From: a virus
Strand: one strand, 5' to 3'
Virus record (IMG/VR): IMGVR_UViG_3300025759_006953
Coordinates: 1 to 25,156 of that record
DNA: 25,156 bases
Below the pieces are notes generated by a model that saw only the letters and a list, made by a program, of their open reading frames with translations, was not told the origin of the DNA and did no database searches. Of this stretch, positions 902 to 17,794 are shown piece by piece. Both the position numbers and the translations under genes were made by a program. How positions within the stretch are numbered: the first letter of the stretch is position 1; each line of letters begins with the position of its first letter.

Positions 902-1502
902 TAATCATGAACGCTGGCGTAATGTAGAAATTATTCGCATTACTCAGTTTGATAAGCATGATTGGTGTGGAATTATCACTAAAGAGCATGGTGAAATTCG
1001 TTGTAAACGCCGTAATAAAAAGCGGTACAAGCTTAAGAAAGGTTATAAAGGCCCGTTGACTGTTTTCTTTTATAAAGGCAATACAGCAACAATTGCAGAT
1101 GATCCTCGTGGTCATATTGAAGTTGAAAATCATTGGACTATTATTGAGCCTAAACTCTTTGATGAGTCACATTATGGTTTTCTTTATGTCATTACAGACA
1201 AGCGTAATGATAAACGTTATGTCGGAATTAAGACATTACACACTAGCTGGAAGGGGTATACTAGCTCTTCCTCAGAACTTAACGATGAAATTGAAAAGGC
1301 AGGTAAAGAAAACTTTGAGTTTAATATTTTATTTTCTTGTGAAATGAAAGGAGATCTTAGTTATATGGAAGCATTTATGATACTTAAAACACACGCATTG
1401 TGTACTGATAATTGGTATAATAAATGGGTTCATGAAATTAAATTTAAACCTGTTATGAAAAACATGGAGAGGCAAATTGAAATCGCCGAAGCGTACTCGT
1501 AA
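882..1502 (+). CDS. GIY-YIG-like nuclease domain protein
   Basis: About 206 residues. The C-terminal half has the layout of a GIY-YIG nuclease-like domain: GFLY (99-102) as the first strand, YVG (113-115) as the second, then W123 and Y126 in a WxxY...SS segment, a Phe-rich strand around 145, E163 in the position of the metal-binding Glu, and a closing YN (179-180). This pattern is common in small phage nucleases and homing-type proteins. The N-terminal ~85 residues are Lys/Arg-rich and unrecognised, perhaps a nucleic-acid-binding domain. Two ATGs (879 and 882) follow AAGGAG at 871-876; the second is better spaced and is used here. The gene overlaps both neighbours by 20-26 nt. Its position inside the replication cluster suggests a recombination or resolution nuclease, or a domesticated homing enzyme. 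Function is inferred. Confidence 0.65.
   Translation: MTTSRFNNHERWRNVEIIRITQFDKHDWCGIITKEHGEIRCKRRNKKRYKLKKGYKGPLTVFFYKGNTATIADDPRGHIEVENHWTIIEPKLFDESHYGFLYVITDKRNDKRYVGIKTLHTSWKGYTSSSSELNDEIEKAGKENFEFNILFSCEMKGDLSYMEAFMILKTHALCTDNWYNKWVHEIKFKPVMKNMERQIEIAEAYS
1466..1472 (+). promoter_or_regulatory. Ribosome site deciding a TTG start
   Basis: GGAGAGG sits 4 nt before the TTG at 1477, inside the end of the upstream gene. No ATG in this frame follows at a usable distance, so the site is the main support for starting the 75-residue gene at TTG. Confidence 0.6.
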
Positions 1503-1704
1503 TCCTTATTATAGTGATATTCGAAAGCACAGCGTAATCCCTTCAAAACAAAATGAAGTTCATGAAGATGAATGGGATGAAGATGTGTTAGAGTTATTTA
1601 ATAATAAGCAACAAAAAGCACAACGAGTTAACAATTCACAAAAAGCACGACAGAAACGAAAGGAAGCTCGTCATGCCAAAGAAAACAGAATATACGGAGA
1701 GTAA
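1477..1704 (+). CDS. Small charged hypothetical protein (TTG start)
   Basis: A 75-residue protein that I do not recognise. The N-terminus is basic (KSPKRTR), the middle is acidic (EDEWDEDVLE), and the C-terminal third is a strongly basic predicted helix rich in K, R and Q. Such charge blocks are common in small nucleic-acid-binding or adaptor proteins, but nothing more can be said. The start codon is TTG, supported by a strong ribosome site (GGAGAGG, 1466-1472) at the right distance. The gene overlaps the upstream one by 26 nt and the primase-helicase by 32 nt, so it is probably translated in step with them. Confidence 0.7.
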   Translation: MKSPKRTRNPYYSDIRKHSVIPSKQNEVHEDEWDEDVLELFNNKQQKAQRVNNSQKARQKRKEARHAKENRIYGE

Positions 1705-3337
1705 AGAAATTGGCAAAACTAAATGCCCTGCTTGTCCGTCTAGTGATGGCTTTGCCGTATATGATGACGGACATGGCTATTGTTTTGTGTGTAATCATTA
1801 TGAGCGTAATGTAGAAGAAGGAAAGGAAGAGGATATGCCTCTAGATACTACAAAAACTGCATGGGATATTGATGTATTCTTTGCAAATACTGGTGATGCT
1901 CGCGGTTGTCGTGAGCGTGGTATAACAAAAGATGTAGCAGAACACTATGGTGTTCGGGTATCGTATGATAGTGATCGTAATATTACTGCATATCATTACC
2001 CTTATACTAAAGATAATGTAATTACATCTTATAAAACACGGACTTTACCTAAACAGTTTAGTACCGTAGGAGAGTTTAAAGATGTCGAGCCATATGGTAT
2101 TCAAAGCTTTAATGCTGGAGGGAAAAGACTCGTTGTCACTGAAGGCGAGTTTGACGCAATGGCGGTGGCGCAAGCGTCAATGGACAAATATAAAAAGATT
2201 TACCCGGTTATATCTGTTGCGTCTTCAAGCAACCTTAAAAGCCTTCTTAAATCACGCACTTGGATTCGCTCGTTTGAAGAAGTAGTATTATTCTTTGATC
2301 AGGACGATGCTGGCAAGAAAGCAGTAAAAGAAGCAGCTAATATTATTGGCATTGATAAAATCAAAGTTGTTAATGTAGCTGAAAATGATCCTTGCGAAGT
2401 ATACACTGCTAAAGGTATGAAAGGTATCTATGAAGCTATCTGGAATGCACAGCCTTATAGTCCTGCAGGTATTATTGTAGGGCATGAGCCAGTGTGGGAG
2501 CAGTATCTTGCAAGGCGTTCTACTGAGTCTGTAGCATATCCTGATTGTCTTCGTGGTATTAATGAAAAGACTAAAGGTATGCGTTTCGGTGAGATCACTT
2601 TGTTTACTTCAGGTACAGGCAGTGGTAAATCTACTGTTATTAAAGAAATTGTACTTGATGTTCTTAGCAAAACAGAAGATCGTGTAGGTATGATTTCACT
2701 TGAAGAATCGGTTGGTGATACTGCTGAAAAGTTTATTCAGATGCAGTTGAAAACTAATCTACAAGAAAATGAAGTACCATTAGAGCAGCAGGAGGCAGCT
2801 AGTCGTGAAGTATTTGGTTCAGAAAAGCTTGTGTTATTGGATCATCAAGGCTCAGTTGGTGATGAGTCTCTTATTGACAAGATTGAGTATATGGCTCTCA
2901 TGGGATGTCGATATCTTATTCTTGACCACATTACAATCGCAGTTTCTGAGGGCGCTGAAGGTTACTCTGGTAATGAAGCCATTGATAAAGTTATGTCTGA
3001 TCTTCTTAAGCTTACTAAGAAGCACAACATCTGGTTGGGTGTTATCAGCCATCTGCGGAAAGTCCAAGGAGGCGGCACCACTTTTGAACAAGGCAAGCTG
3101 CCTGCAATGGACGATATCAAAGGTTCAGGTAGTATTAAACAAATATCTTTTGACATTATCGGTTTTGCCCGTGACATGTCAAATGAAAACGAATCAATCC
3201 GTAACACTATTAAGTTTTCGGTGCTTAAAAGCCGATTTACAGGTAGGACAGGGCCAGCTGGAAACGCTAAGTATGACCACAATACGACCCGACTTTCTTA
3301 CCACAATGAAAATGAAGTTGACTTCGAGGTAATGTAA
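1673..3337 (+). CDS. DNA primase-helicase (T7 gp4-like)
   Basis: A 554-residue bifunctional enzyme that lays RNA primers and unwinds the fork, matching T7 gp4 (566 residues) in length and order. Domains: an N-terminal zinc ribbon with C18, C21, C37 and C40 for template recognition; a TOPRIM primase core with E157-G-E-F-D161 and the DQDDAG segment (D209, D211, D212); then a RecA-like hexameric helicase with Walker A GTGSGKS (314-320), a conserved Glu in SLEES (E344), Walker B ending in D418 (RYLILDH), and SHLRK (459-463) as the motif 3-type sensor. All key residues appear intact. The ATG follows AAGGAAG at a good distance and overlaps the preceding gene by 32 nt; the stop overlaps the next start as TAATG. 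It should work with the polymerase at the left edge. Confidence 0.95.
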   Translation: MPKKTEYTESKEIGKTKCPACPSSDGFAVYDDGHGYCFVCNHYERNVEEGKEEDMPLDTTKTAWDIDVFFANTGDARGCRERGITKDVAEHYGVRVSYDSDRNITAYHYPYTKDNVITSYKTRTLPKQFSTVGEFKDVEPYGIQSFNAGGKRLVVTEGEFDAMAVAQASMDKYKKIYPVISVASSSNLKSLLKSRTWIRSFEEVVLFFDQDDAGKKAVKEAANIIGIDKIKVVNVAENDPCEVYTAKGMKGIYEAIWNAQPYSPAGIIVGHEPVWEQYLARRSTESVAYPDCLRGINEKTKGMRFGEITLFTSGTGSGKSTVIKEIVLDVLSKTEDRVGMISLEESVGDTAEKFIQMQLKTNLQENEVPLEQQEAASREVFGSEKLVLLDHQGSVGDESLIDKIEYMALMGCRYLILDHITIAVSEGAEGYSGNEAIDKVMSDLLKLTKKHNIWLGVISHLRKVQGGGTTFEQGKLPAMDDIKGSGSIKQISFDIIGFARDMSNENESIRNTIKFSVLKSRFTGRTGPAGNAKYDHNTTRLSYHNENEVDFEVM

Positions 3338-4034: not shown

Positions 4035-4234
4035 AAGAAATGCCTAACTACATTGCATGGATTGAGTGTAACCGTGACGACTTAGATGAAGTCTATGCAA
4101 TGTTTCCTAAAGATAAATACGAAATTTTAGTTGCAATTAAACCCAACTATGATCCAATTACTTGTTCAACACAAGTATTATATAATCCACCAGCTCCAAC
4201 TTGGGGCGTAGACGTATGGAAGCGAGAAGACTAA
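4010..4234 (+). CDS. Hypothetical protein, 74 residues
   Basis: An acidic 74-residue protein that I do not recognise. It has alternating hydrophobic strands (YEILVAI, STQVLY) and a Trp-containing end (GVDVWKRED), consistent with a small alpha/beta fold. It lies between the deaminase (25 nt overlap) and the RNA polymerase (overlap of 1-19 nt depending on the polymerase start), so it is expressed with both. A regulator of the adjacent polymerase, like the small T7 inhibitors, is conceivable but unsupported. Confidence 0.6.
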   Translation: MRVEFKSIEEMPNYIAWIECNRDDLDEVYAMFPKDKYEILVAIKPNYDPITCSTQVLYNPPAPTWGVDVWKRED

Positions 4235-6351
4235 TGGATGATATTGTAAATTATCTGATTGATCGAGTACGTAGTGAGGACGCAGGTGTTCGGCCTCGGC
4301 GTAATTTACAACTAATGCGTATGATTGATACTGATGGCGTAGATATGCTTGATCATATTATGGTTGATATGGTAGGGCAAGCTCGGAAAGTAATTCAACG
4401 TGCATTTAAACGTAATAAAGTAGAAGGTGAAGCGCCTATTACTCAAATCTCAATGGCAATTGGTAAACACATTGTTGAGAATTGGGATGAAACAAATGTT
4501 AATTTTAGAGACCATGTACGAGTCGGAGACTTAATTGTTGAAGGCTTTGTTATGTGTGAATATCTTACTATTTCAGTAGGACATCTTAAAAGTCGCAAGC
4601 CAGTTACTATTCATGCGACTAAGAAATGGGGCGAGCTAGAAGCTCTGGACACAAGGACTGTCTGTATTAGCGGTGACGCTATTGCCCCTATTACTTCTCT
4701 TATTCAAGCTAATGGTAAGAGTGTAATTAAAACTTGGGATAAATCTAAAGAGAAAAAGTTTATAAAATATCTTGATACTCCATTCGTTAAGGCTATTAAT
4801 AAGCTTCAAAGCGTTCGGTTTCGGGTTAACACAGATGTACATAATGCAATCTTAAATAACTACGGTATGTTTATTAAAGATGAAATCTTTGATGGCGACA
4901 ATGAGGAAGAAAACAAAAAGCTTTATCAACGACAAGCCTCAAAGAACCGTGAGATGAAAGAGATTATGGCTATTGCAGCTAAGTGGCTGCACAAAGACTT
5001 TAGCTTTTATCTTGATGCCGACTACCGTGGTCGTATTTACTATAGCGAACCATTCTTTAACTTCCAAGGTGCAGACACTGCTCGTGGTCAATTGCTTTTC
5101 TCTAAAGGTAAATTGTTTGATGGCGAAGCTAGCTTTTGGTTAGGCGTACACACTGCTTGTTCTTTTAACGAGTCATATCACATAGATGAAATTCCTAACT
5201 GGGTTACATCTGATTACCGTAATGTACTTGAATCTGAAGACCTTGACACTATATCAGTAGATAAGATGACACTTGAAGATCGCGCACAATGGACTCAACA
5301 ACACATTGAAGAAATTGTAGAGTTAGGACGTACAGGCACTATATCTACCCTTGCTGAAAAGAATATTTCTTTTCTTGCTTGTTGTATTGAATGGTATAAG
5401 TACTCGATAGCCGAAGGTGATTACTATACACACTTACCTGTACCTATTGATGGCGCTAATAATGGGTGGCAACACCTTGGTGCAATGTCTAAAGATGAGT
5501 TAACTGGACGACTAGTAGGTCTTGTTCCTACTGATATTCAAAATGACTTCTATGTGCAGATAGCTAAGCGTCTGACTTTACGTATGCCTGAGTGGTTTGA
5601 AGAACGTAATATTCCAATGAAGCATATTCGTAAAGGTATTGCTAAGCGTGCTGCTATGACTCGCGCTTACAGTTGTGGACAAAAGAAAATGTCTGAGTCA
5701 ATGTATAGCGATTGTTATCAGTATGGCTTTACTGGCACATACAGCATCACTGAGAGAGATTGCGATGATCTTAGTGGTCAGGTAATACGAGCTATCGAAG
5801 AGGTCTGTCCTGGGCCTCTAGAGACAATGAGATACTTACAACGTTTAGCCGACCAAGAGATAGCTAATTGGCTGGGTATGTATGGTACTGATCGTGGTCA
5901 CGCTATTGAGTGGACTACCCCTTCTGGTTTTCCTGTTATCTACGAATGCTATCGTACACGACCCGCTAAAATTGACTGTTATGGATTTAACACACCCAAC
6001 GGTGAGATTAGGTTTAAACACGTTATCAGAGAGAAAACAGATATCCCTGATCGTCGTGGTTTTATGTGTGGCATTAGCCCTAACTTTGTACATAGTATGG
6101 ATGCTTCTCATATGGCTCTTACTGTAGCTAGCTGGGATCATGAGTTTGGCGCAGTGCATGACTCTTATAGTTGCCATGCTAGTGACGTTGAAGAATTAAT
6201 GATTACTACTAGAGAAAAGTTTGTTAGTCTTTATGATAAGCCTAACTTCTATGACAATATTCCTTTTGGTAAAGGCTTTCCAGGGCCGACACCAAGAATA
6301 GGAACACTTGAAGTGTCAGATGTAATTGCTTCTGATTATTTCTTTTGTTAA
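4216..6351 (+). CDS. T7-like single-subunit RNA polymerase
   Basis: A DNA-directed RNA polymerase of the T7/mitochondrial type, about 711 residues against 883 in T7. Ordered motifs, numbered from the ATG at 4216: DYRGR (D269-R273) as DxxGR; motif A with D412 in PIDGANNGWQH; motif B with K473, K477, M481 and Y485; motif C with H648-D649 in AVHDSY. SPNFVHSMD before motif C and a C-terminal SDYFFC correspond to T7 PNFVHSQD and SDFAFA. Oddities: Ser follows the motif B Tyr where T7 has Gly, Lys replaces T7 R627, and the N-terminal domain is about 150 residues shorter than in T7. Start choice: ATG 4216 gives a 19-nt overlap like the other junctions; ATG 4234 overlaps the preceding stop as TAATG and is about equally likely; a TTG at 4201 is less likely. 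It is the last gene of the plus arm. Confidence 0.95.
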   Translation: MEARRLMDDIVNYLIDRVRSEDAGVRPRRNLQLMRMIDTDGVDMLDHIMVDMVGQARKVIQRAFKRNKVEGEAPITQISMAIGKHIVENWDETNVNFRDHVRVGDLIVEGFVMCEYLTISVGHLKSRKPVTIHATKKWGELEALDTRTVCISGDAIAPITSLIQANGKSVIKTWDKSKEKKFIKYLDTPFVKAINKLQSVRFRVNTDVHNAILNNYGMFIKDEIFDGDNEEENKKLYQRQASKNREMKEIMAIAAKWLHKDFSFYLDADYRGRIYYSEPFFNFQGADTARGQLLFSKGKLFDGEASFWLGVHTACSFNESYHIDEIPNWVTSDYRNVLESEDLDTISVDKMTLEDRAQWTQQHIEEIVELGRTGTISTLAEKNISFLACCIEWYKYSIAEGDYYTHLPVPIDGANNGWQHLGAMSKDELTGRLVGLVPTDIQNDFYVQIAKRLTLRMPEWFEERNIPMKHIRKGIAKRAAMTRAYSCGQKKMSESMYSDCYQYGFTGTYSITERDCDDLSGQVIRAIEEVCPGPLETMRYLQRLADQEIANWLGMYGTDRGHAIEWTTPSGFPVIYECYRTRPAKIDCYGFNTPNGEIRFKHVIREKTDIPDRRGFMCGISPNFVHSMDASHMALTVASWDHEFGAVHDSYSCHASDVEELMITTREKFVSLYDKPNFYDNIPFGKGFPGPTPRIGTLEVSDVIASDYFFC

Positions 6352-6409
6352 AAAAAAAAATAACCCCCATAAGGTTTCCATTACGGATTCCCTATGGGGG
6401 TATTTTTAT
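6350..6409. terminator. Bidirectional intrinsic terminator between convergent arms
   Basis: A hairpin pairs 6363-6374 with 6390-6401 (ACCCCCATAAGG against CCCTATGGGGGT, one A/C mismatch) around a 15-nt loop. On the right it is followed by TATTTTTATT (U-tract for plus-strand transcripts). On the left lie eleven consecutive A (6350-6360), which give a U11 tract for minus-strand transcripts. The A-run begins inside the stop codon of the T7-like RNAP gene. Both arms can therefore end here, with the stronger U-tract serving the long late transcript. Confidence 0.88.
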
Positions 6410-6640
6410 TTATTGATTGTTATACTGCATTGCAGTTTTACGTAGACGACCAGCGGCTGCTTTAGCTTGGCCTTCTGAGTAACCTTGTTTAATAAAGTTT
6501 GATACATTAATATTAAACATACTATCGTATGCGGCTCTATTAATCTCTGGTGTTCCTGCAAGTTGTGGATCTAGTTTTAAAGTGTTTACTAAATCTACAT
6601 CAGTAACATTTTGTCGAGTAAGTACATTATAATTTTTCAT
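6410..6640 (-). CDS. Hypothetical protein, 76 residues, last gene of late arm
   Basis: A 76-residue protein of unknown function with a basic, Ala-rich C-terminal helix (EGQAKAAAGRLRK) and an N-terminal part rich in N, D and T. The ribosome site is a perfect AGGAGG a few nt before the ATG and overlaps the stop of the upstream 1206-residue gene, so it should be well translated. It ends within 10 nt of the terminator hairpin. Being last in the virion operon, next to the putative virion RNA polymerase, it could be a minor virion protein or a partner of that enzyme. This is inferred from position only. Confidence 0.7.
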   Translation of the reverse strand: MKNYNVLTRQNVTDVDLVNTLKLDPQLAGTPEINRAAYDSMFNINVSNFIKQGYSEGQAKAAAGRLRKTAMQYNNQ

Positions 6641-6649
6641 TTAGTCCTC

Positions 6650-9600
6650 CTAATTATATTGTGATCCATCAAGTTTAAATAATGGATCTTTAAATACTCT
6701 AGCAATATTATTTTCTGCTTGACGATGTAAGGCCGATAACTCTGTTAAAACTTCACTACGTTTAATTAACTCATTTATAATTTGTTTTAACACTTTACCG
6801 CTAACACTTCCTGTTCCGTCAATATTCCAATAAGCGCCTTCACCTTTAGTGGCCTTACGTAAAATATCTTTCATCCAGTTAGGTGTATTACCTGTTGTCT
6901 CTTCAAGTATACCGTCTTCAGAAATAACTTTTGACTTTCCTTCGACTGTAAACGTTTGCATACGCCTAAGCTCGTCATGGACAGCCCTATAAATAGAAGC
7001 ATCATTAAGCTCATACATTTGATTATCATTAATTTTGCTCATAGCTTTAGCTTTAGCTTGATTTAAACCATTATAAACAGCTTTAGTAACTGAATAACGT
7101 TTATTCATTTCAACAAAATTTCTGTTCATTGCACGATGATACTCATCCACTGAGCTGACATCTGTAATAATAGCATCATGCACTGGGATTAAAAACTTAA
7201 CTCCTTTTTTATTTTCAAATGCAGCTCTATTAACTTGAATAACAGACTCGGCCATAATTGCAGCATCTATTTGTTGAATTGGTAAAACAGGTAATTGGTT
7301 AGCTACTTCTTGACCATAACGACCTCCCGGTTGAATGGTCCATTTATTAGTTTTAGCATCAAAGATTAATTTACGATTACGCATTTGTGCGCTACCTGTA
7401 TAACGAGGCTTTCGAATAGTAATTTCTTGTAGCTCGTCTCCCATATCTACAGTTAATATTTCACCTGTATCATAGTATTCAGTAGAACCCATATAGATAT
7501 TATTGCCCATTGGACCTTGCATTTCAGGAACTAGTCCTAGTAATGCCCAAGTGCGACCCGCTTTTTTGTAAACGGATTGATGTTTAAAGCTTAATGTAGG
7601 TGCAATTGTTCCTGCAATAATGTAATTAAGATCATTAATTGCTTCTTGTCGTGTGTAGTTGTAAGCTTCTAAGTCTAGCATTACACTAACTTCTTCGTTA
7701 TCAATAAATGATCTAGCTGTTTCTTCATTAAAAAGAAAATGACGACCATATGATACTTCCATCAACGGTTGTTTTGAAAGTTCTTTAATTAACTCACGAT
7801 TATCTTCGATCTTTAAGAAAAAGTTTTTCCAATATTCACGTCTTTCGTCAGATAACCCACCGCTTTTAGTAGCATAATCAATGCCTTGATTTAAATTTTG
7901 TGCAAAGAGTTTACGAACATCACCTAAAGGTAACACATTGTCATCAGAGGCATAGATAAGACCTGTGCGTGACAATAGATCGGCGTTTCCCATTTGCATT
8001 GCTTGAATAGCAATACCATTTTGTTTACCGTCATGTTGTGTTTGTGCTTCAGGAGTAAATGAGCCTGTAACTTTTGTATCAGGTGGTAATCCCATTTCGT
8101 TTAACACTGCTGCAACTGCTTGTGTTTGACCACGGCCTTGCTTAGACGCTAAATCAAAATTAGCTAAATCAATATATGATTGGAATGCATAGCCCCATTC
8201 ACCTTTAGTATTTAACTCATTGAATAGATCTTGAAGAGAAGGATCTGCTGATAAAAATCCTGCTAAGTTTGCTTGTGGATCTGTCTTTAATGCATTAACT
8301 ATTTTAATTAGCTTACGACCTTTGGCTACCCATTGATCATATTCAGCACCATCCATTGCTTTTTTAGTTGTGTTTAAAATAGCATTCCAACCCATGTCTT
8401 CGGTATCTACTTCTTGACCAGTTAAATCTCGAATCATAGTAGGCGTTAAAAGGTTGCGTCCTGTAATGTACAAAAAGTTTTCATACGTTTTAGTTGATCT
8501 ATCTTTTAAAGGATTAAGGTAAGTTTTTTGTGCGCTACCTACAAACATACGAGCTAAGCTTTTGCTGTCTTGTGGGTTAAGCACTGTATTACGCACAAAG
8601 AAACGACCAACAGAAGTAGCATCCATAATTTTATTATAGAATACTTGATTTCTTTTGTTAAGGCCTTGAGTAATAATCTTAGAAAGCTTACGGGCTTCCA
8701 TACGCATTACCATATTTGCTTGTGCAGTAGCTTGCCCTTCATCCATAGTTTTTAATGCATGATCACGAGCTTTAAGCCATTTGGCTTTATCAAGCCCCAT
8801 TGTTTTAGCATAAGGCTGAGTAGAATAATCCCCTTCAGGTGCTTTGCCTCTAATGTCAACAAATTGTCTACCGTCTTGAGTTTGTCTAATTTGAATTACA
8901 TTATTAACCATCATACGCGCAAATACAAAACGATCTTCCATTACTCGATAAGGTATTGAGCCTAAAATACTTTTAGCTAAATCAGCTTTTGCTGTATTTG
9001 GATCTGATTGATTTGTTTTAGATTGGCTACCTTCTTTACGACGACCACGCTCTCTTGCTCTAAAAGGCGCTGTAGTTCCTCCGATAGTTGGTGTAGCTGA
9101 TGTATCAACTTCATTAGCAAAACCCATATCTTCCATAAGTGGTTGCATTGAGCGAATATAAGCAGCACCTTCATCACTAATTGCAATATAATCAGATTCG
9201 CCTTCTTGTTCAATTACTGAAAACATCCCTGTTTCAGTTAACACATTATTAAAAATTGCATTAGTAGCAGCAATAACATCTGAGCCTACTGATGCAGAAC
9301 CGCCACCAAACCCTGGACGAATGTCAGGTGAGTCTTGTGCAATAGGATTTTCTGCAATGATATCAAACAAAGTTTGCGAAATACGATTTCGAAATTCATT
9401 AGCATCTAATCGCCTATCTACACTAGGGCTTAAATCTGTTGAACCAAAAGATTTACCTCGTTGTGTAATTCGAGTATCTTCTTTATCTAAAACATTTTTA
9501 CCTTCAATAGCAATTGCAGTTGCTAATCCAGCACCAAGCCTAGTGCTTAATGTTCCTGTTTCTGAATCATACAAACCAAGACCTGATAATGTGCTTTGAA

Positions 9601-10270
9601 TTTTATTATCAATTTCAGTATTACCAGTTAACGTAGGTAACATTGTTCTTGGGATAATCTGATTATAAGTATCAGCTGCATCAGCTAACACTTCAAAGTC
9701 TGTTTCAACATCAAGTGCAGTTCGAGTAATATTTAATCCATACTTATCTGTTTGTCCTTGGATATTTTCAGGATCGTATGAAGCAATAATCTCCTGAACT
9801 TCAGGTTTAGCTTTTAATTCTGCAGGTGATTCAAAGTCTAATGTTGCTGGCATTGTTTCCCCGGTTTCAACATCAACTTCTGGTTGTCTAATACGGGGTG
9901 CTGCTGCTGCTTGGAAGGCAGCTTCTTCTTCTGCAATTCGTTGTTTGTCTTCTGGATTGTTTGTAAATTGATTAGTCTCAATATCAAACACAGGAGCCAT
10001 TGTATCTATTAAAGGCTGTGGATTTAATTCTGAGCCAGCTGTCATTGCCCTGTCAACTGCGCCTGAAGGATCAGACATATATGCAGGTTCAGTAGGGATA
10101 TCTTGACGACCCTCTATTCCTTTGCGTTGATATAATTCGTCTACTGCATCAGGGGTTTTAAGAAAATCATCTCCCCTAGCTTGTTGAGAACGCAAGCGAG
10201 ACATTGCTTGTTGTTCTTTTGCTGCTCTTTCTGCTTGTTTTTGTTTTGAACTTTTAATTTGAAAAGCCAT
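6650..10270 (-). CDS. Putative virion-packaged single-subunit RNA polymerase (N4 vRNAP-like), 1206 residues
   Basis: A long protein in the ejection-protein module with the ordered signature of single-subunit RNA polymerases. T552-S-V-G-R556 matches the T/DxxGR motif, in the T form known from the N4 virion enzyme, and is followed by NTVLNPQDS, which resembles T7 MFNPQGND. Motif A is D747-G in QHDGKQNGIAIQA. Motif B is K833-QPL-M837-EVS-Y841-G842, with the exact T7 K-to-Tyr spacing of 8 and K829 where T7 has R627. Motif C is H1031-D1032 in IPVHDAI, preceded by LPIQQID (996-1002). Met rather than Phe in motif B and the GR motif argue against a DNA polymerase. The first ~450 residues are Gln/Ala/Pro-rich and unrecognised, possibly for packaging or ejection. 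The total is close to the N4 mini-vRNAP (1106 residues). TAGGAG precedes the ATG. Catalysis and packaging are inferred. Confidence 0.82.
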   Translation of the reverse strand: MAFQIKSSKQKQAERAAKEQQAMSRLRSQQARGDDFLKTPDAVDELYQRKGIEGRQDIPTEPAYMSDPSGAVDRAMTAGSELNPQPLIDTMAPVFDIETNQFTNNPEDKQRIAEEEAAFQAAAAPRIRQPEVDVETGETMPATLDFESPAELKAKPEVQEIIASYDPENIQGQTDKYGLNITRTALDVETDFEVLADAADTYNQIIPRTMLPTLTGNTEIDNKIQSTLSGLGLYDSETGTLSTRLGAGLATAIAIEGKNVLDKEDTRITQRGKSFGSTDLSPSVDRRLDANEFRNRISQTLFDIIAENPIAQDSPDIRPGFGGGSASVGSDVIAATNAIFNNVLTETGMFSVIEQEGESDYIAISDEGAAYIRSMQPLMEDMGFANEVDTSATPTIGGTTAPFRARERGRRKEGSQSKTNQSDPNTAKADLAKSILGSIPYRVMEDRFVFARMMVNNVIQIRQTQDGRQFVDIRGKAPEGDYSTQPYAKTMGLDKAKWLKARDHALKTMDEGQATAQANMVMRMEARKLSKIITQGLNKRNQVFYNKIMDATSVGRFFVRNTVLNPQDSKSLARMFVGSAQKTYLNPLKDRSTKTYENFLYITGRNLLTPTMIRDLTGQEVDTEDMGWNAILNTTKKAMDGAEYDQWVAKGRKLIKIVNALKTDPQANLAGFLSADPSLQDLFNELNTKGEWGYAFQSYIDLANFDLASKQGRGQTQAVAAVLNEMGLPPDTKVTGSFTPEAQTQHDGKQNGIAIQAMQMGNADLLSRTGLIYASDDNVLPLGDVRKLFAQNLNQGIDYATKSGGLSDERREYWKNFFLKIEDNRELIKELSKQPLMEVSYGRHFLFNEETARSFIDNEEVSVMLDLEAYNYTRQEAINDLNYIIAGTIAPTLSFKHQSVYKKAGRTWALLGLVPEMQGPMGNNIYMGSTEYYDTGEILTVDMGDELQEITIRKPRYTGSAQMRNRKLIFDAKTNKWTIQPGGRYGQEVANQLPVLPIQQIDAAIMAESVIQVNRAAFENKKGVKFLIPVHDAIITDVSSVDEYHRAMNRNFVEMNKRYSVTKAVYNGLNQAKAKAMSKINDNQMYELNDASIYRAVHDELRRMQTFTVEGKSKVISEDGILEETTGNTPNWMKDILRKATKGEGAYWNIDGTGSVSGKVLKQIINELIKRSEVLTELSALHRQAENNIARVFKDPLFKLDGSQYN
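7121..8638 (-). other. RNA polymerase catalytic core within the 1206-residue protein
   Basis: This is the stretch coding residues about 545-1050, from the TxxGR motif to just past motif C. Spacing between key residues is R556 to D747 (191), D747 to K833 (86) and Y841 to D1032 (191), compared with 112, 94 and 173 in T7 RNA polymerase. The order and the short motif B spacing are conserved. The longer first and last intervals indicate insertions in the thumb/palm and fingers, which is also a feature of N4-type enzymes. Confidence 0.75.
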
Positions 10271-10318: not shown

Positions 10319-13300
10319 TTATGTGTATTTTCCCATAAAGAAATCTCTAACATCATTACCTGTTGGCAATGAGCTATCTTTAAAAGGATTAGTTCCAGTT
10401 ACACCTTCAGCTAATGCACCACGAAGTCCTGTTGCTGGTCCAATGTAAGGTGCAGTTTTAAATATATTTCTAAAACCTCGTTCACCTTCACCAGCTAACA
10501 AGTCGCCTACGCCACCGCCTAAAGTTTGTACATTTCTGATAGTTGGCCCTGCTTCGCCTAACGCTGCATTCATTAACCATTCCATACCTTCATCTCGTTG
10601 TGGATAAAGTGGATGAATTAAATCAACTACACGCTCATACTGACCTAATGCACCTGATGCATAAACAGCACGCTGAATATACCCTGACGTATCTAGGTAA
10701 GGGCTAGGCTGACCGAACTTAATCATATCTTTAAGTAGTTGTGATGCACCGCCTAATGCCATTAGCATAATAATTAAAGCAAATGTGTCATACTTAACTT
10801 TAATATTGCCTCGTCTTAAACCTCTATCATATAGCTTTGGAATAATATTAGCAGTAAATGTACTAATAAAGCCGTTAAACTGTGTGATTAATTGGAAGTG
10901 AGGATCTTGAAAAACTAATGGACGATTAGAATGACCCGGCATTTGAATACGTTCATGAACATAACGTTGAATTGCATTACTCATTTCATCATGAATATAA
11001 CTTTCTAATTCTGATAAATTATTAACGTATAATTCAATTGCTTCACGACCTTTAATATTAGGAATTTTACTACGTAATGCTTTACGTAATGCAGCCTCTC
11101 GTTGAGTAGCAGGTCTTGCTGCAGCTTCATCTATTTCTAATGCAAGATCAGTAGCCATCATACTAGATAAGTTAGAATTAACACCATCTGTAATGTTAAG
11201 AAAAGAATCTCTTGACATAGAATCAAGATCTTCCATTAATAACATCATTCGATCTACATCAAGGCCTAATGAAGTTAACTGTCGGTAAGCTGACATTTCT
11301 AGTTCATTAAATTTATCAAAATTAAAACCATAAATACCTTTATCTTCGGCATCTATTTGATTTAATTTTGTAGGGGCTAACTCTAAAATTGAAAAAGAGT
11401 TTTTAATTGCATCTAAAGCAATTACTGAAACAATTCTACGTTGTAACTGAGTAATACCCTGGATACCTACGCCTTTAAAGAAAGCTTCATGCAATCTAGC
11501 AAATGCTAAATCACGTTCACCTGTTGCTAGCCTATCAGCAATAGTGTTTGCATTAACGTCTAGCCCTACTGCTTTAACTAACTCTCTGCCTTTATTTGCT
11601 TCTGAGTCTAATGCTTTATTAAACGAAGTAGAAATTTGTTTAATGAATTGATCAGTTGAATTCTTAAACATCTCATCATCTTTAACATCAAAATAAATCA
11701 TTGCAAATTCAGGCAATGAAGCTGGCATTGATAAAGGCAATCCAGCAAGGATTGACCATGAGGTAGCAAAGCTATTTAATGCAGCAAGCCTAGGATTTTC
11801 AATACGATTATAATTACCGTTAGCTGCATTAATCATTGATACTACATAGAATGCGAACTGAGAAAGTTCATCACGAGTTAGATCGCCTTCTGCTTCTAAC
11901 TCTCTAAATAAACGATGCAGCTTATGACCGCCTTGTCCAAAGTATTTTGCATTTGCAATATACCTTGCACTATCTACTTGCGTTTTATTCAAACTTTCAA
12001 ATAAGTTTTTATTTCTAAAGCGATTTAGCTTGTCTGATTGCGCTAGCTTATCTGCATCTTTTGTAAAAGCAAATGGAACACCTGTAGTTCTAAAATCAAT
12101 TAAAGAATAGCTAGGTGCATCCTCTCCTTGATTTTCTTTACTTAAAGTAGGATCTACTGAGTTAATAGTTTGTTCACCGCGCCTTGCAATATTATCATAT
12201 ATGCGTTGTGCAGCTTCTTCACTGTAATTTAACTCCTCAACTAAAAGTTTTTTAAACAACACTGGATTTTTTCTAACTGAACGCCAATCAAAGCCTTGAT
12301 TTTGCCACCACATATTTATATTATAAATTAATTCTGGACCAGCAGGATTTTCTTTCACATGCTCTTCTTTTGTTTTAACATACAAATAATCGTAAGAGCG
12401 TTTGATTGAATCAGCAGATAAAAAATTACGTCTTAGTAACTCAATATTTGATGCACTAACTTCTCGGTCTTTAACTGATTTAGGAAGAAATTGCATTAAA
12501 GTAGCTTCATCAATTGTACCATTTGTCCCAAACTTATTTACAACATCCATATACACATCTATTTCTTCAGACAAAATTACAGGATCTGTTGTGTTAAATC
12601 CTAAGTTATTTAAAATTTCAATATATGCAGTATGTTCTTCTGTTCCCGGAGTAGAACGCTGATAGTCTGAAATAACTTGATTTAAAGAAGGCAATTTAGA
12701 TTGCATATCAAAGGCTTTATAAACTGCATAACCTCTTGATGTTCCAAATTCAATTAAGTCTTCTGAAATCTTTACTGCATTTTTATAAGTCATTTTACTT
12801 TTGCCAAATAAATTTGCAATAACTTTTTCATCTACAAATAACTTTGCTTTATGAATAATTGTTTGTTGAAACTCTTTAAAGTTAATTCCAGGATGTACAA
12901 CATCGCCTAATACACTTCCTACCCTTGCTAATATTTCTAGTGCTTTTGGATTTGCAATAGCTCTAGCTGCTTTAATAGCTGAACGTTCTGCACCACGTAC
13001 AAGACGTCCTGCACCTACTGCTAATACTTCAAGAAAATCACTAGCACCTTGTATATTGCTTAGAGTATTACGCATACCTTTTTTACGAGTAATATAGTCT
13101 TTAGCAAGCGTATTAGCTTTGTTTTGTTCAGAAGCAAGATTATACTCTACAACTTTGTTTTGTTTTTTCTTATTTAAAACTTGTTGTTTATTACGTGCTT
13201 GCCTTTCATTTATAGCACGCTCTTGCGCTTTAGTTGCTGCTGTAATATATGCGTCAGCAGCTGCTGGGTCATTAGAACGAATATTACTTTCAGTACCAGA

Positions 13301-15130
13301 AACTACTTTACTAACTAAGCCTCCTTGTGCAACAACATCTGCAACTCCTCGTTGTGCATATTCAATTAACGCAGGATCATTTGTTGTTTCTTCAACTAGC
13401 TGTTGATCTGTTTTTTGATTGTTAATAATACTAGCTTGTGTAGCACTTTCATTTTCAACATTAGTAACAGCTGCTTGTTCTGCAGGATTTGTAGCTGTAT
13501 TTTCTTGTTCACGAGCTTGTCTTTCAATTCCTTCATCAATAGTACTAATGCCTTCACCTGATTGCATACGTCCTATTTTATAAAGCTCAAACAAGTTCAT
13601 TCGCTCTTGATCAGCACGACGATATATTGACTTATTAAGTCTGTTTCGACTTTGAGCATATACATTACCTGCACTGCCTAAGCCTGTACCTAACACACCA
13701 CCCGCTACAGCAGCATTAGTAAGCCTGTTAAATACTTCGTCACGAGTATACTCTTTTTCAGAAAAACCTGCAGCCGAAGCCATTTGTAAACCTTCTTGGC
13801 CTACCTCAGTTAATGCCTCACGAACTAAACCTTTACCTGCTGCAGTACCTAAAGAACCTACAGAAAAATTAGCAATATCAGAAGGTTGAATTCTTTGTTT
13901 ACCAATTTCTTTTAAAAATTCTTTTTGTTTTTTAGCAGTAGCTTTAGCAAAAGTAGTTGCGGCTTGTTGTTGTGTCATGCCTTTATTCATTAAGGCTTTA
14001 ATTACTTTTTGTTTACCTTGTGCGCTAAACACTTGTACAGGTGCAATCAATCCTCTTAAACCTAAGTATTCAAGTGTTGCTTGACCTACACCAGAAATAG
14101 AGGCCACTACAAATTGTGAAGTACCTTTGTCTCCTTCCATTTCATTCCAAGTTTGACCTGCATAAATAACAGAGTTTGGAAGTGCGGTTAAACCTGCTAC
14201 TGCTAATGAGCCACCCCCTGTTGCTAAAGCAATTGGAACTGCAGCTGCAAAAGCAGCAAAAGAAGTAACCATATAAGGAGCTGACATTGCAGCGTTATTT
14301 AATACGTATTGAAAACCATTATACAAGTTGTCAACTTCATCGTAGTTAAGCAATAAGTCAGGCGTGTCAGCAATAGCTGATCTAGCTCGCATTACACCTT
14401 GTTCACCAATATTTTCAATTAATTCAATATCAGTTGTTTGTCCAATAGCATCTAAGTAACCCCAAAAACCTTCGCGGATACCGTCCCAACCAAGACCCCC
14501 TGCAAAGCCCATACCACTAAGTAAACCTTTAGGTTTATTTTCTAGTGTTCTATTAGGATCTCTAAACTGAACTCCAGCATGAATCTCAGGAATATACTCT
14601 GACTCATCAATAGCTAATGATTTATATTCAGGACGACCTTGTTCTATCGCATCGGTATAAGCATCACGTTGTTCTTGAAATAAACTACGTTGATCTCCAA
14701 AAAGTCGACGATACATTTCACCTTCACGATAAAGAGTAGCGTTCTTTTCAGAAGTAAAAGTATCTAGCTTAGCTAAACCTTCTTTATAAAGTGTTTCCGA
14801 TAGGTCTTCACCTGCATCATTTTGAATTGATGCAAGATCTCGGCCATAGTCATCTTGTTTACCCGAATATATAATTCGATTAAACCCACCTTTGTTGATG
14901 ACATCGGCAACAACTTCCGTATTCATGTTGCCGCCGATTTCACCATGTTTAGTTTCAAACTCACCATCGTCATTCTTAATAAGAGAACTAGTTTCAAGGC
15001 CATCAAAGCCCATGATACGAATTCTACGCCCTGTTTTATTATCATGAAGCGTATCGCTATCAATCAAGGTCTGAGTATTTCCTTTATTATCTGTAAAAGA
15101 AAATATCTCTGCTGGCTTATAACCTTCCAT
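10319..15130 (-). CDS. Giant internal virion / ejection protein with N-terminal nuclease domain (gp16-like position)
   Basis: A 1603-residue protein in the slot of T7 gp16, so probably ejected to form the trans-envelope DNA channel. Residues ~20-125 are a staphylococcal-nuclease fold with all catalytic residues present (listed separately). Residues ~280-315 are strongly hydrophobic and Ala/Gly-rich, able to span a membrane, and a second hydrophobic stretch lies at ~1450-1465. Between them are long helical, Gln/Lys-rich regions, one (~540-680) looking like coiled coil. The C-terminal ~160 residues are Gly-rich, with turns typical of ejection proteins. Unlike T7 gp16, no transglycosylase domain is seen here; that activity sits in the next protein upstream. 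AGGAG precedes the ATG, and the gene starts 9 nt after the 884-residue gene ends. The structural role is inferred from order and length; the nuclease domain rests on motifs. Confidence 0.85.
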   Translation of the reverse strand: MEGYKPAEIFSFTDNKGNTQTLIDSDTLHDNKTGRRIRIMGFDGLETSSLIKNDDGEFETKHGEIGGNMNTEVVADVINKGGFNRIIYSGKQDDYGRDLASIQNDAGEDLSETLYKEGLAKLDTFTSEKNATLYREGEMYRRLFGDQRSLFQEQRDAYTDAIEQGRPEYKSLAIDESEYIPEIHAGVQFRDPNRTLENKPKGLLSGMGFAGGLGWDGIREGFWGYLDAIGQTTDIELIENIGEQGVMRARSAIADTPDLLLNYDEVDNLYNGFQYVLNNAAMSAPYMVTSFAAFAAAVPIALATGGGSLAVAGLTALPNSVIYAGQTWNEMEGDKGTSQFVVASISGVGQATLEYLGLRGLIAPVQVFSAQGKQKVIKALMNKGMTQQQAATTFAKATAKKQKEFLKEIGKQRIQPSDIANFSVGSLGTAAGKGLVREALTEVGQEGLQMASAAGFSEKEYTRDEVFNRLTNAAVAGGVLGTGLGSAGNVYAQSRNRLNKSIYRRADQERMNLFELYKIGRMQSGEGISTIDEGIERQAREQENTATNPAEQAAVTNVENESATQASIINNQKTDQQLVEETTNDPALIEYAQRGVADVVAQGGLVSKVVSGTESNIRSNDPAAADAYITAATKAQERAINERQARNKQQVLNKKKQNKVVEYNLASEQNKANTLAKDYITRKKGMRNTLSNIQGASDFLEVLAVGAGRLVRGAERSAIKAARAIANPKALEILARVGSVLGDVVHPGINFKEFQQTIIHKAKLFVDEKVIANLFGKSKMTYKNAVKISEDLIEFGTSRGYAVYKAFDMQSKLPSLNQVISDYQRSTPGTEEHTAYIEILNNLGFNTTDPVILSEEIDVYMDVVNKFGTNGTIDEATLMQFLPKSVKDREVSASNIELLRRNFLSADSIKRSYDYLYVKTKEEHVKENPAGPELIYNINMWWQNQGFDWRSVRKNPVLFKKLLVEELNYSEEAAQRIYDNIARRGEQTINSVDPTLSKENQGEDAPSYSLIDFRTTGVPFAFTKDADKLAQSDKLNRFRNKNLFESLNKTQVDSARYIANAKYFGQGGHKLHRLFRELEAEGDLTRDELSQFAFYVVSMINAANGNYNRIENPRLAALNSFATSWSILAGLPLSMPASLPEFAMIYFDVKDDEMFKNSTDQFIKQISTSFNKALDSEANKGRELVKAVGLDVNANTIADRLATGERDLAFARLHEAFFKGVGIQGITQLQRRIVSVIALDAIKNSFSILELAPTKLNQIDAEDKGIYGFNFDKFNELEMSAYRQLTSLGLDVDRMMLLMEDLDSMSRDSFLNITDGVNSNLSSMMATDLALEIDEAAARPATQREAALRKALRSKIPNIKGREAIELYVNNLSELESYIHDEMSNAIQRYVHERIQMPGHSNRPLVFQDPHFQLITQFNGFISTFTANIIPKLYDRGLRRGNIKVKYDTFALIIMLMALGGASQLLKDMIKFGQPSPYLDTSGYIQRAVYASGALGQYERVVDLIHPLYPQRDEGMEWLMNAALGEAGPTIRNVQTLGGGVGDLLAGEGERGFRNIFKTAPYIGPATGLRGALAEGVTGTNPFKDSSLPTGNDVRDFFMGKYT
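14756..15073 (-). other. Staphylococcal-nuclease (SNase/TNase) domain
   Basis: Residues about 20-125 of the 1603-residue protein. By alignment to the Staphylococcus aureus enzyme: D26 in DSDT equals D21, R38 and D43 in RIMGFD equal R35 and D40 with the same 5-residue spacing, E46 equals E43 at the same +3 spacing, and R97 in DDYGRDLA equals R87 in DKYGRGLA. LYKEGLAKL matches the family's VRQGLAKV helix. All metal and phosphate contacts are therefore present, and calcium-dependent cleavage of DNA or RNA is expected. Confidence 0.85.
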
Positions 15131-15139
15131 TAATTGCTC

Positions 15140-17794
15140 CTACTGTTTAACAAGTTTAAATATTTCTAATGCTTTTTTATTGCCTGACAAACATTCATTA
15201 ATCCAATTCATCATAGGATTCATGCCTTCGCCACCTGCATTAAGAAATACTGTTGGTACGTTTTTGCCTTGTGCTGCCATAGCAGTGTATTTAGTCCAAG
15301 TAGACTTATACTTAGCCATATTAAATTGATATAATTCCATAGCTCTTTTAGGATTTTCATTAGAAGATTCCCAAGCTTTGTCTTTAATTTGTTTATCAAT
15401 TTTAGCAAAAGTTCTAGCATCAGTGCCTTCAATATCTGCATTAGACCACGCGCCACCTGTATCAATGTTGATTTGCCGCTTTTGAAAATAAGCTTGTAAA
15501 GAAGAAGGCTCACGGCCTTTCTTTTTACCATCATCAATCCATGCAGCATAGTCACGGTAATACTCTGACATTGCTAAATTAAGATTACTAATAAGATCTG
15601 CACGTTGTTGTGCGCCCATTCCGCCATACCCAAACTTACGGGTATTAAATAGCGTATCTGCTTCATCACTTATTCTAACTGACAAAGCTTCAGGTACTTT
15701 ATCTTCAGGCTCTCTATTAGCATTAACTTCTTTTAAATAAGTTAATCCATCAGTTCTAAAAGCTTTTTTAATATTATCACGATCATGTTGTGACTCTTGA
15801 TAATCTTCAATATAAGGTGCTACAACAGGATTGTCTAATCGAAGTAATTGACCATCAACATTAATTCTTTCAATATCATCAGTACCAATTACTGTAGGTA
15901 ACACACCTAATTGAGTATGATAAATTCTACCTCCTCGTTTTTTAATTCCAAGAGGTGTTTTATCAAGCTTTTCATCTAACTCTGTCATGTAATCTTTAGC
16001 TGCATAACGAGCAGAAGTAAGATGGTCATATCCTAATACACGACTACCAAAGTATTGTACAGCCATACGAGCAAGAAGCTTATCATCTTTAAGATAACCA
16101 AAGTTATCTGCTACCCAAGTCTTAGCTTTTTCCCAAGCACCCGGATCTTGATTTGCTCCTTCATCTGCTGCGCCTTCAATATCACTATCATCAGTATCAT
16201 CTAGTGTTTGAACGCCTTGTGAAGTATCTGGTGTAGTGCCTGGAGTGCCATCAGGTAATGGAACTAACCCTTCTGTAGCAGGTGGAACAGTTGAACGTTG
16301 AGACTCATCAATAAAGATAATATCATCTTCGGTACCCATAACACTAGATAATCGTTCTCTAACTCCACCATACCCGACTTTAATAAAGTCACCATTTTCA
16401 GTACGATATACATCATAAAACTCAGGTCCAACTATACCTTCATTTTTAATTTTACCTACTAAGGTTGAATCTGCAGGTGGACCAATGCTTTCTTCACCAA
16501 GCCTTGATAAACCTTCAAATATATCTCCAATAAATTCACCCGGACTTCTACTATATTCACGCCCTTCTGCATCTACATACTCATCTTTTTCAGAGTCATA
16601 AATGTAAGGCACACCATTACGAATAATAGTATCATTAACTCCTACTTCACCTGCATCTGCTGGTACTTCAGGTTGTTCTACAGTAGCAGGAGGTGCTACT
16701 ACAGGTGGTACAGTTGTTGCAGCAGGTGGCACAGGTGGAGTAACTGCAGTTGGTGTTTGTGTATTATTTGCTGGCGGTGTTACAACTGGAGGTGCATTTC
16801 TTGTACCCGGAGGTGGAGTATAAACAATTTCATCATCATTATTACCGCCAAAAAAATCTAAGATTGGTTGATAAAATGGGTCTTTATCATCTTCATTATT
16901 AGCAGAACTACCAGTAGCATAATAACTTGGACTGGGAAACACTTCACCGCCAACTGACATTTTATCAACATCAGACATATATTTTTCATATTCTTTCATT
17001 GTCATTGGCGCAGGAACAGGTAATGGTAGTGATTCAGGTTTAGGAGATTGACTAGGTATTTCTTCATACTCAGAATAACCTGCACGGCCTAATACCTTAT
17101 AAGGATATTCAAATGCCTCTTGTGTTAACCCAAAATCAGTTAATTTACCACTGCCTTCATCTGGACCTCTAACGTTTTTTCTAACTGTACCTGGCCCAGC
17201 ATTAAACGCACGAATAACATCTTTAGGACTCCATTCAGGATGCGCTAATTGAATACCTTGTAAATACTCTTTTGTTTTTTGACGCATACCTTCTTCGCCA
17301 ATCGTTGTAACATTAAAAGGCTCTACTCCAAATCCAGGACTATCTGCACTTGATTGTTTCCACTGATAAGCGCCTGTTGCTCCTGATTTTGGATTTACTA
17401 ATAATGTACCATCTTCTTTAAAATGTCGATCACTTGATTCTACAAATCTTAAAGCATCTAATACTTCATCATTAATCCAACGAGTTTTATACCAATCACT
17501 TATTCTATTACCAAAACTTTTACCTTCAGCAGCATAAGTCGGAATAGGGCCACCTTGTTGTGCTTGAATAGCTCTGCCAGCGTCATTTAATTCGTCAAGC
17601 ATCGGTTGAACACCGGGAAGCCTAGAAGCTTCTGCATTAATAACATTTTCACCGGGAGTTAACCATGCTGGAACTGTATCCGTTCCTTTTGGTCCTCCGG
17701 GATGCGGTATGTCTTGCATTGGAGGCACTTCAAACTCAATAGATGTCATATTACCATGACGATCTTTTTGAGTTAACTTTTTAATTTGCATCAT
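15140..17794 (-). CDS. Ejection protein with lytic transglycosylase (SLT) domain
   Basis: An 884-residue virion protein. An N-terminal segment (GTDTVPAWLTPGENVINAEA, about 37-56) is of a kind often seen in phage tape-measure and ejection proteins. Residues ~108-245 form a soluble lytic transglycosylase domain with catalytic E119 in RFVESSD, SGATGAYQW (137-145), AFNAGPG (196-202) and YPYKVLG (230-236); it would cleave peptidoglycan during DNA entry. A Pro/Thr-rich linker spans ~326-379. The C-terminal half (~500-884) is helical and unrecognised. T7 places this activity at the N-terminus of gp16, whereas here it is in the protein upstream of the gp16-sized one. The start codon lies in the ATGATG overlapping the stop of the 404-residue gene, whose last codons hold the ribosome site. 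Confidence 0.88.
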   Translation of the reverse strand: MMQIKKLTQKDRHGNMTSIEFEVPPMQDIPHPGGPKGTDTVPAWLTPGENVINAEASRLPGVQPMLDELNDAGRAIQAQQGGPIPTYAAEGKSFGNRISDWYKTRWINDEVLDALRFVESSDRHFKEDGTLLVNPKSGATGAYQWKQSSADSPGFGVEPFNVTTIGEEGMRQKTKEYLQGIQLAHPEWSPKDVIRAFNAGPGTVRKNVRGPDEGSGKLTDFGLTQEAFEYPYKVLGRAGYSEYEEIPSQSPKPESLPLPVPAPMTMKEYEKYMSDVDKMSVGGEVFPSPSYYATGSSANNEDDKDPFYQPILDFFGGNNDDEIVYTPPPGTRNAPPVVTPPANNTQTPTAVTPPVPPAATTVPPVVAPPATVEQPEVPADAGEVGVNDTIIRNGVPYIYDSEKDEYVDAEGREYSRSPGEFIGDIFEGLSRLGEESIGPPADSTLVGKIKNEGIVGPEFYDVYRTENGDFIKVGYGGVRERLSSVMGTEDDIIFIDESQRSTVPPATEGLVPLPDGTPGTTPDTSQGVQTLDDTDDSDIEGAADEGANQDPGAWEKAKTWVADNFGYLKDDKLLARMAVQYFGSRVLGYDHLTSARYAAKDYMTELDEKLDKTPLGIKKRGGRIYHTQLGVLPTVIGTDDIERINVDGQLLRLDNPVVAPYIEDYQESQHDRDNIKKAFRTDGLTYLKEVNANREPEDKVPEALSVRISDEADTLFNTRKFGYGGMGAQQRADLISNLNLAMSEYYRDYAAWIDDGKKKGREPSSLQAYFQKRQINIDTGGAWSNADIEGTDARTFAKIDKQIKDKAWESSNENPKRAMELYQFNMAKYKSTWTKYTAMAAQGKNVPTVFLNAGGEGMNPMMNWINECLSGNKKALEIFKLVKQ
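16658..16819 (-). repeat. Pro/Thr/Val-rich linker coding segment
   Basis: Residues ~326-379 of the transglycosylase protein are mainly Pro, Thr, Val and Ala (TPPPG, VVTPPAN, VTPPVPP, VVAPPAT), encoded by imperfect repeats of a short ACCxCC-type unit. It probably makes an extended flexible tether between the enzyme domain and the C-terminal half. Confidence 0.7.
17060..17473 (-). other. SLT lytic transglycosylase domain
   Basis: Residues ~108-245 of the 884-residue protein. The Glu in VESS, the SGATGAYQW block, the AFNAGPG block and the closing YP..VLG are the four signature blocks of family 1-type lytic transglycosylases, in the correct order and within a normal domain length. Confidence 0.85.

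Follow-up and report, generated by a model that had tools for sequence, protein, structure and literature searches.

A giant virion RNA polymerase (vRNAP) is treated as a defining trait of N4-like phages. The N4 enzyme, gp50, has about 3500 residues, and its transcription activity is held by the 1106-aa N4 mini-vRNAP (PMC4496689). In the reference genomes of Schitoviridae, single-subunit vRNAPs are 2,842-3,820 aa long (PMC10654107), with a 2,083-aa case in Alteromonas phage R22Y (PMC11705849). For StenR_269, a large cysteine-free protein was proposed as a vRNAP, reliable sequence or structural support being absent (PMC10747016). A survey of hidden N4-like viruses dropped vRNAP-related proteins of <2,500 aa (PMC10654107), a floor that would have missed a compact family. 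Here we describe such a compact enzyme, a 1206-residue protein encoded in a 25,156-nucleotide stretch of viral DNA (IMG/VR record IMGVR_UViG_3300025759_006953; the whole stretch is hereafter called the window), from a phage akin to roseophage CRP-7. The literature that we searched held no report of a ~1,200-aa vRNAP family, nor of one in CRP-7-type phages.

We consider it likely, at roughly three chances in four, that the virion carries this N4-family vRNAP and injects it to transcribe the early genes, and that a T7-type enzyme of the same phage then takes over.

Placement among single-subunit RNA polymerases

The original prediction, made from the letters of the DNA alone, had read the 1206-aa open reading frame (ORF) as an N4-type single-subunit RNA polymerase, only slightly larger than mini-vRNAP. 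TSVGR (residues 552-556), D747-G, K833...M837...Y841-G842 and H1031-D1032 all lie where it had placed them (Table 1), and the K...M...Y spacing is, as claimed, exactly that of T7 gp1 (KRSVMTLAYG at 631). The size comparison holds as well (1206 vs 1106 aa).

The compact polymerase is nearly invisible to ordinary sequence search. Pfam RNA_pol (PF00940) gives it 14-17 bits, below the cut-off of 22, and the best E value in a PHROGs search is 0.01. In 50,697 phage records, tblastn with the protein and with two relatives found no homologue, and sequence searches of the PDB returned nothing relevant. No relative was recovered from 84,980 bacterial and archaeal genomes in one scan, which thus names neither a host nor a provirus.

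Its position emerges from profiles. A 12-sequence family profile aligned by hhalign with N4-type vRNAPs at E=1.9e-11. The motif regions lined up: TSVGR paired with TRVGR, QHDG with EADG, KQPLMEVSYG with KNPLTITIYG, and HD with FD. The NPQ..K..R block fell on the N4 block containing K437 and R440, the initiating-nucleotide contacts of mini-vRNAP (PMC4496689). The same profile matched a T7-type profile of equal depth at only E=7e-4. Control runs with reversed profiles gave 0.6-0.8, and the N4 profile matched the T7 profile at E=1.8e-10. By profile, N4 vRNAPs are thus nearer to the compact enzyme than T7 enzymes are (1.9e-11 vs 7e-4), and its nearest vRNAP is that of Vibrio phage phi50-12. It has the TxxGR form and DGxxxG motif A of N4-type enzymes (TSVGR and DGKQNG) and their absence of cysteine, but lacks their N- and C-terminal domains and their length of about 3500 aa. 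Judged as an Autographiviridae/T7 enzyme, it stays under the PF00940 gathering score and carries TSVGR, not DxxGR.

Structure prediction points the same way. A template-free AlphaFold2 model of the protein (predicted local distance difference test, pLDDT, 72.9; predicted template modelling score, 0.68) was searched with Foldseek. The PDB matches listed were all single-subunit RNA polymerases, including mitochondrial RNA polymerase (8e-14), T7 (2e-12) and N4 mini-vRNAP (about 2e-10; 2po4, 3c46 and 3c3l). Among BFVD viral models, T7-type polymerases and N4-type vRNAPs were matched, with RNA polymerases down to E=8e-4 and a DNA polymerase first appearing at 1.4e-3. Motifs, profiles and model together strongly support membership of the single-subunit (T7/N4/mitochondrial) RNA polymerase superfamily, with its right-hand fold. 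The profile comparison that the original prediction had proposed as a check bears out its N4-type assignment.

Relatives and the CRP-7-like phage group

In IMG/VR, 17 contigs carry compact-polymerase homologues, some near-identical to one another. One of them comes from the window's own phage (contig behind L003; 20,271 bp at 99.98%) and was excluded as independent evidence. Full-length homologues have 1180-1220 aa and are mostly 31-36% identical to the 1206-aa protein, with two closer ones at 45-51%. Across the relatives of the window clade, TxxGR, QHDGKQxGIAIQA, KxPLMExSY and HDAIIT are kept, catalytic residues included, which is the conservation that the original prediction had looked to as a check. 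Since relatives of only 32-51% identity keep these motifs, the set is not a product of chance. The threonine form of the first motif, put forward as an N4 trait, is present in the window protein but is not uniform: the family shows TSVGR, TAVGR and SSVGR, with serine in some relatives. Two pattern matches were rejected, one (L015) on a contig that carries neither polymerase and the other (L018) in a 111-aa ORF with the other motifs missing. We also noted that the C-terminus of the family (window 6650-6670, minus strand) is conserved as Y[QE]YN or QYN, possibly a packaging or interaction signal.

Among named phages, the nearest T7-type enzyme is gp30 of CRP-7 (34% identity). The gene at the matching convergent position in CRP-7, a cultured phage (host FZCC0042), is that of gp33 (L042:17859-21566), a 'hypothetical' protein of 1235 aa without cysteine. 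Reached through synteny and profiles only, gp33 by itself matches the family profile at 2e-7, and at 2e-8 when joined by its IMG/VR relatives. It resembles the compact enzyme in length, locus, the convergent T7-type polymerase, the lack of cysteine and the invariant catalytic Arg, Asp, Tyr and His-Asp; R556, K570, R574, D747, Y841, H1031 and D1032 are among the residues invariant in both clades. It differs in its low identity (about 15-17%), in two changes that mark the CRP-7 clade (Arg for K833 of motif B and Ala for the Gly of motif A DG) and in not being annotated as a polymerase. A model of the CRP-7 clade is of low confidence (pLDDT 47), and its 19 best PDB matches, all single-subunit RNA polymerases, lend weak support to a polymerase identity. 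From these comparisons, gp33 appears to be an overlooked, divergent member of the compact-polymerase family. The CRP-7 paper assigns an RNA polymerase to ORF30 only and calls these podoviruses non-N4-like (PMC6918029).

The window does not reach the terminase and portal genes, and the assignment of its phage runs through a relative, G008, whose near-complete genome (57.85 kb) has both polymerase genes, the vRNAP being 1180 aa long. G008 and CRP-7 share 61% identity in terminase, 55% in portal, 53% in capsid and 33% in T7-type polymerase; the kinship of the first three makes the group CRP-7-like. The portal of G008 falls in N4's PHROG 1216, and its capsid in a different PHROG from N4's (1328 vs 1357). 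The group is one of little-studied marine phages, in which the compact enzyme probably belongs to the proteins injected along with the DNA.

In the window, as in N4 and CRP-7, the layout is convergent, with replication genes on the plus strand and virion genes on the minus strand, unlike in T7, whose genes all run one way. The replication module (5'-3' exonuclease, GIY-YIG nuclease, primase-helicase and dCMP deaminase) is closed by a gene for a T7-type polymerase, and such a gene lies near that of the compact enzyme in 17/17 homologue-bearing contigs. The original prediction had left this second polymerase unmentioned and had called the phage T7-organised. The convergent layout and the separate T7-type polymerase argue against that label, as does the kinship of G008 with CRP-7. 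Its placement of the gene in an ejection module fared better, since the gene belongs to a nearly cysteine-free block of ejection-type proteins, although not to one of T7 organization.

A proposed two-polymerase cascade

Computational analysis establishes the homology, the fold, the conserved active site, the absence of cysteine and the co-occurrence with a T7-type enzyme. Beyond this, we propose that the compact enzyme, an N4-branch catalytic core cut to about mini-vRNAP size and encoded near the late-operon end, would be made late and packaged into the virion. It would then be ejected and threaded into the host alongside the 1603- and 884-aa proteins encoded next to it, and would transcribe the early genes from extruded DNA hairpin promoters at the left end of the genome. 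The T7-type enzyme would afterwards transcribe the middle and late genes. What had been predicted as a new transcription strategy is better called a two-polymerase cascade, compact vRNAP first and T7-type enzyme second.

The main ground for packaging is that the enzyme is cysteine-free and placed in the late operon. Cysteine is absent from all 1206 residues and from 10 of the 11 relatives examined; in the eleventh, a single one lies close to the N-terminus, in an apparently over-extended start. The roughly 710 residues of T7-type enzymes include 14-16, a rate at which about 24 would be expected in the compact enzyme, whereas N4 vRNAP has none in 3500 residues. It has been proposed that a protein must be free of cysteine to pass through the tail or periplasm (PMC3715699).

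Promoter-like elements bear on the order of transcription. Because the window's two contigs are without the early region, the hairpins are seen only in relatives, and a search of the window's own contigs for T7-type promoter-like sites found none. In G008 and G015, a T7-type promoter-like sequence, (A)AACNCCCTTATAGG, stands before plus-strand middle genes and before the minus-strand first late gene, and G017 and G018 also have such a site before the late gene; sites of this kind in the relatives include L061 3873 and 7994 and G008 57307 (minus strand). A hairpin, AGGRYA-NTYN-TRYCCT, precedes early genes, upstream of the first plus-strand T7-type site, with 8 sites in the 15 kb of early region of four genomes vs 1 in 128 kb elsewhere (shuffled sequences: mean 0.23, maximum 3). 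Its stems covary, in that both partners change in 3/6 pairs and 98% of cells are paired, and six of the hairpins, folded as single-stranded DNA, give z-scores of -2 to -5. Long perfect hairpins, sought genome-wide, were not in excess. The N4 left end, searched likewise, yielded GTTGC-TTC-GCAAC and AAGAAGC-TCC-GCTTCTT before the first two genes, which we take to be P1 and P2. We infer that the compact enzyme uses the early hairpins, and the arrangement suggests that these phages begin transcription without the host polymerase.

Several points weigh against packaging, injection and early transcription by the compact enzyme. First, packaging and injection are deduced here from genes alone, and with the N- and C-terminal domains of gp50 absent, the packaging route must differ from that of N4. 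Second, the hairpins come from relatives, as noted above, and their pattern is post hoc, noticed after direct repeats in the early region had been inspected; no similar hairpin was recognized in CRP-7, and the relatives' loops have 4 nt with A:T closing, whereas N4 loops have 3 nt with C:G. Third, without Vibrio phage phi50-12, the N4 match drops to 1.1e-7, and single-sequence hhalign is mostly insignificant, so that the N4 link is carried by profiles.

Of the competing explanations, the one that we find possible, if doubtful, takes the early hairpins for mRNA leader stem-loops or protein-binding sites and leaves the early genes to the host polymerase. Sitting 25-50 nt before start codons, the hairpins could lie in transcripts, and their size differs from that of N4's. 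On the other hand, like N4 promoters, they are confined to the early region, ahead of the first T7-type site, and their stems covary while the sequence changes. Sigma-70-like matches in the relatives' early region are at chance level, although the promoters of the host could follow a consensus unlike that of sigma-70.

It is unlikely that the compact enzyme is an active single-subunit polymerase made in infection for late or specialized transcription and not borne by the virion. That its virion location is read from the genes, that it is without the extra domains of N4 vRNAP and that the phage also encodes a polymerase of a different type would all fit such a role. However, its gene lies at the late-operon end beside two large ejection-type proteins, with which it shares a near-absence of cysteine unlike the T7-type enzyme, and this locus matches that of N4 gp50. 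Moreover, an enzyme made late would have no new genes left to transcribe and no obvious task.

More improbable still is a former virion polymerase, catalytically dead and retained as a structural ejection protein. The two altered motif residues of the CRP-7 clade (motif A Gly to Ala and motif B Lys to Arg) speak for it, but the window clade keeps all catalytic residues despite 32-51% identity. Both catalytic Asp residues, the Tyr and the Arg are invariant in both clades, whereas a purely structural protein should lose them, and the early hairpins suggest a functioning promoter system. Finally, we reject another right-hand polymerase or palm protein (DNA polymerase or primase), or coincidental motifs, since, for all that the Pfam RNA_pol score is under its cut-off, this is already contradicted by the in-register alignment of the motif regions to N4 vRNAP and by PDB matches that are, as listed, all single-subunit RNA polymerases (a viral DNA polymerase comes only at 1.4e-3), and replication genes are accounted for elsewhere.

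The cascade of an injected compact vRNAP and a later T7-type enzyme may extend beyond this phage. We are evenly divided on a wider proposition, that two single-subunit enzymes alone give a widespread lineage of marine podoviruses, CRP-7 included, a transcription cascade independent of the host polymerase. The first would be a minimal injected N4-type enzyme, free of giant terminal domains, that reads hairpin promoters of a distinct class with 4-nt loops, and the second a T7-type one for all middle and late genes.

Table 1. Positions of the two polymerase genes, the motifs of the compact enzyme and neighbouring elements in the window
Feature	Position	Strand	Details
Primase-helicase of replication module	1673..3337	+	phrog_239 E=2e-154
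T7-type single-subunit RNA polymerase, putative middle/late	4201..6351	+	716 aa, 14 Cys; PF00940 E=1.6e-55, phrog_414 E=2.5e-98
Bidirectional terminator-like hairpin between the convergent polymerase genes	6364..6400	.	Same element in relatives compared
76-aa ORF	6410..6640	-	9 bases downstream of vRNAP gene; conserved, 76-92 aa in relatives compared
Compact N4-type virion RNA polymerase (predicted)	6650..10270	-	1206 aa, ATG start, 0 Cys; motifs, hhalign, AlphaFold2 and Foldseek
Motif C, H1031-D1032 AIIT	7163..7180	-	Motif alignment
Motif B, K833-QPLMEVS-Y841-G842	7745..7774	-	Motif alignment; K to R in CRP-7 clade
Motif A, QTQHDGKQNG, catalytic D747	8015..8044	-	Motif alignment
K570...R574	8549..8563	-	Aligns with N4 mini-vRNAP K437/R440
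TSVGR, residues 552-556	8603..8617	-	Aligns with N4 TRVGR; R556 invariant in both clades
Putative ejection protein	10319..15130	-	1603 aa, 0 Cys; homologous to CRP-7 gp34
Putative ejection/tail protein	15140..17794	-	884 aa, 1 Cys; G008 homologue: lytic transglycosylase-type domain

Some neighbouring elements have features of their own. The 76-aa ORF, with the motif YNxLALQG..DDMEFV...LDPxLAYTPxIN...AGRLRxxAK, had no match in a family search, and its product is a possible polymerase partner. The interior of the terminator-like hairpin (AAGGTTTCCAT...GGATTCCCT) is conserved besides its complementary arms, which goes beyond the needs of a terminator. Between the exonuclease and primase-helicase genes lies one for a GIY-YIG (SegE-like) endonuclease (window 879-1502, plus strand), and a nuclease-like ORF about as long occupies the corresponding place in G008. 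Residues 75-130 of the 1603-aa protein weakly match a staphylococcal-nuclease-like family (PF00565, E=0.0027, below cut-off).

Comparison with known systems

Packaged single-subunit polymerases probably reach beyond Schitoviridae, and a catalytic core can, on this reading, sit at the ejection locus without giant flanking domains. The roles of those domains in N4 (ejection, membrane anchoring and autoinhibition) thereby become testable by comparison, and the hairpin elements would offer an independent system for DNA-hairpin promoter recognition.

The virion polymerases of phiKZ-like phages and of P23-45 (a tape-measure fusion) are packaged enzymes for the first genes, followed by a non-virion polymerase, a strategy like the one proposed here; they differ in being kin to cellular RNA polymerases and not to the T7/N4 family (PMC10770324, PMC4666361). 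T7-type (Autographiviridae) RNA polymerases share with the compact enzyme the single-subunit right-hand fold, the motif order and the K...M...Y spacing. The compact enzyme differs from them in having TxxGR and not DxxGR, a profile match of only 7e-4, no cysteine, a larger size and a virion locus.

The closest likeness is to N4 gp50 and the Schitoviridae vRNAPs, with which the compact enzyme shares TxxGR, motifs A, B and C, the K437/R440 block, DGxxxG and the lack of cysteine. At the genome level, N4 resembles this phage group in a vRNAP gene near the late-operon end (in N4 it is the last gene, convergent with the early genes), a second polymerase of T7 type and hairpins before early genes, here in the relatives. 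The differences lie in size and subunits. The compact enzyme has 1206 residues vs about 3500 in gp50, or one third, has no giant N- or C-terminal domains and is about as large as the 1106-aa N4 mini-vRNAP; two residues before the motif A Asp it has Gln where N4 has Glu; and the second polymerase is one polypeptide here and a gp15/gp16 heterodimer in N4. The compact enzyme is in the N4 branch, yet in size and domains it falls outside the criteria of a Schitoviridae enzyme.

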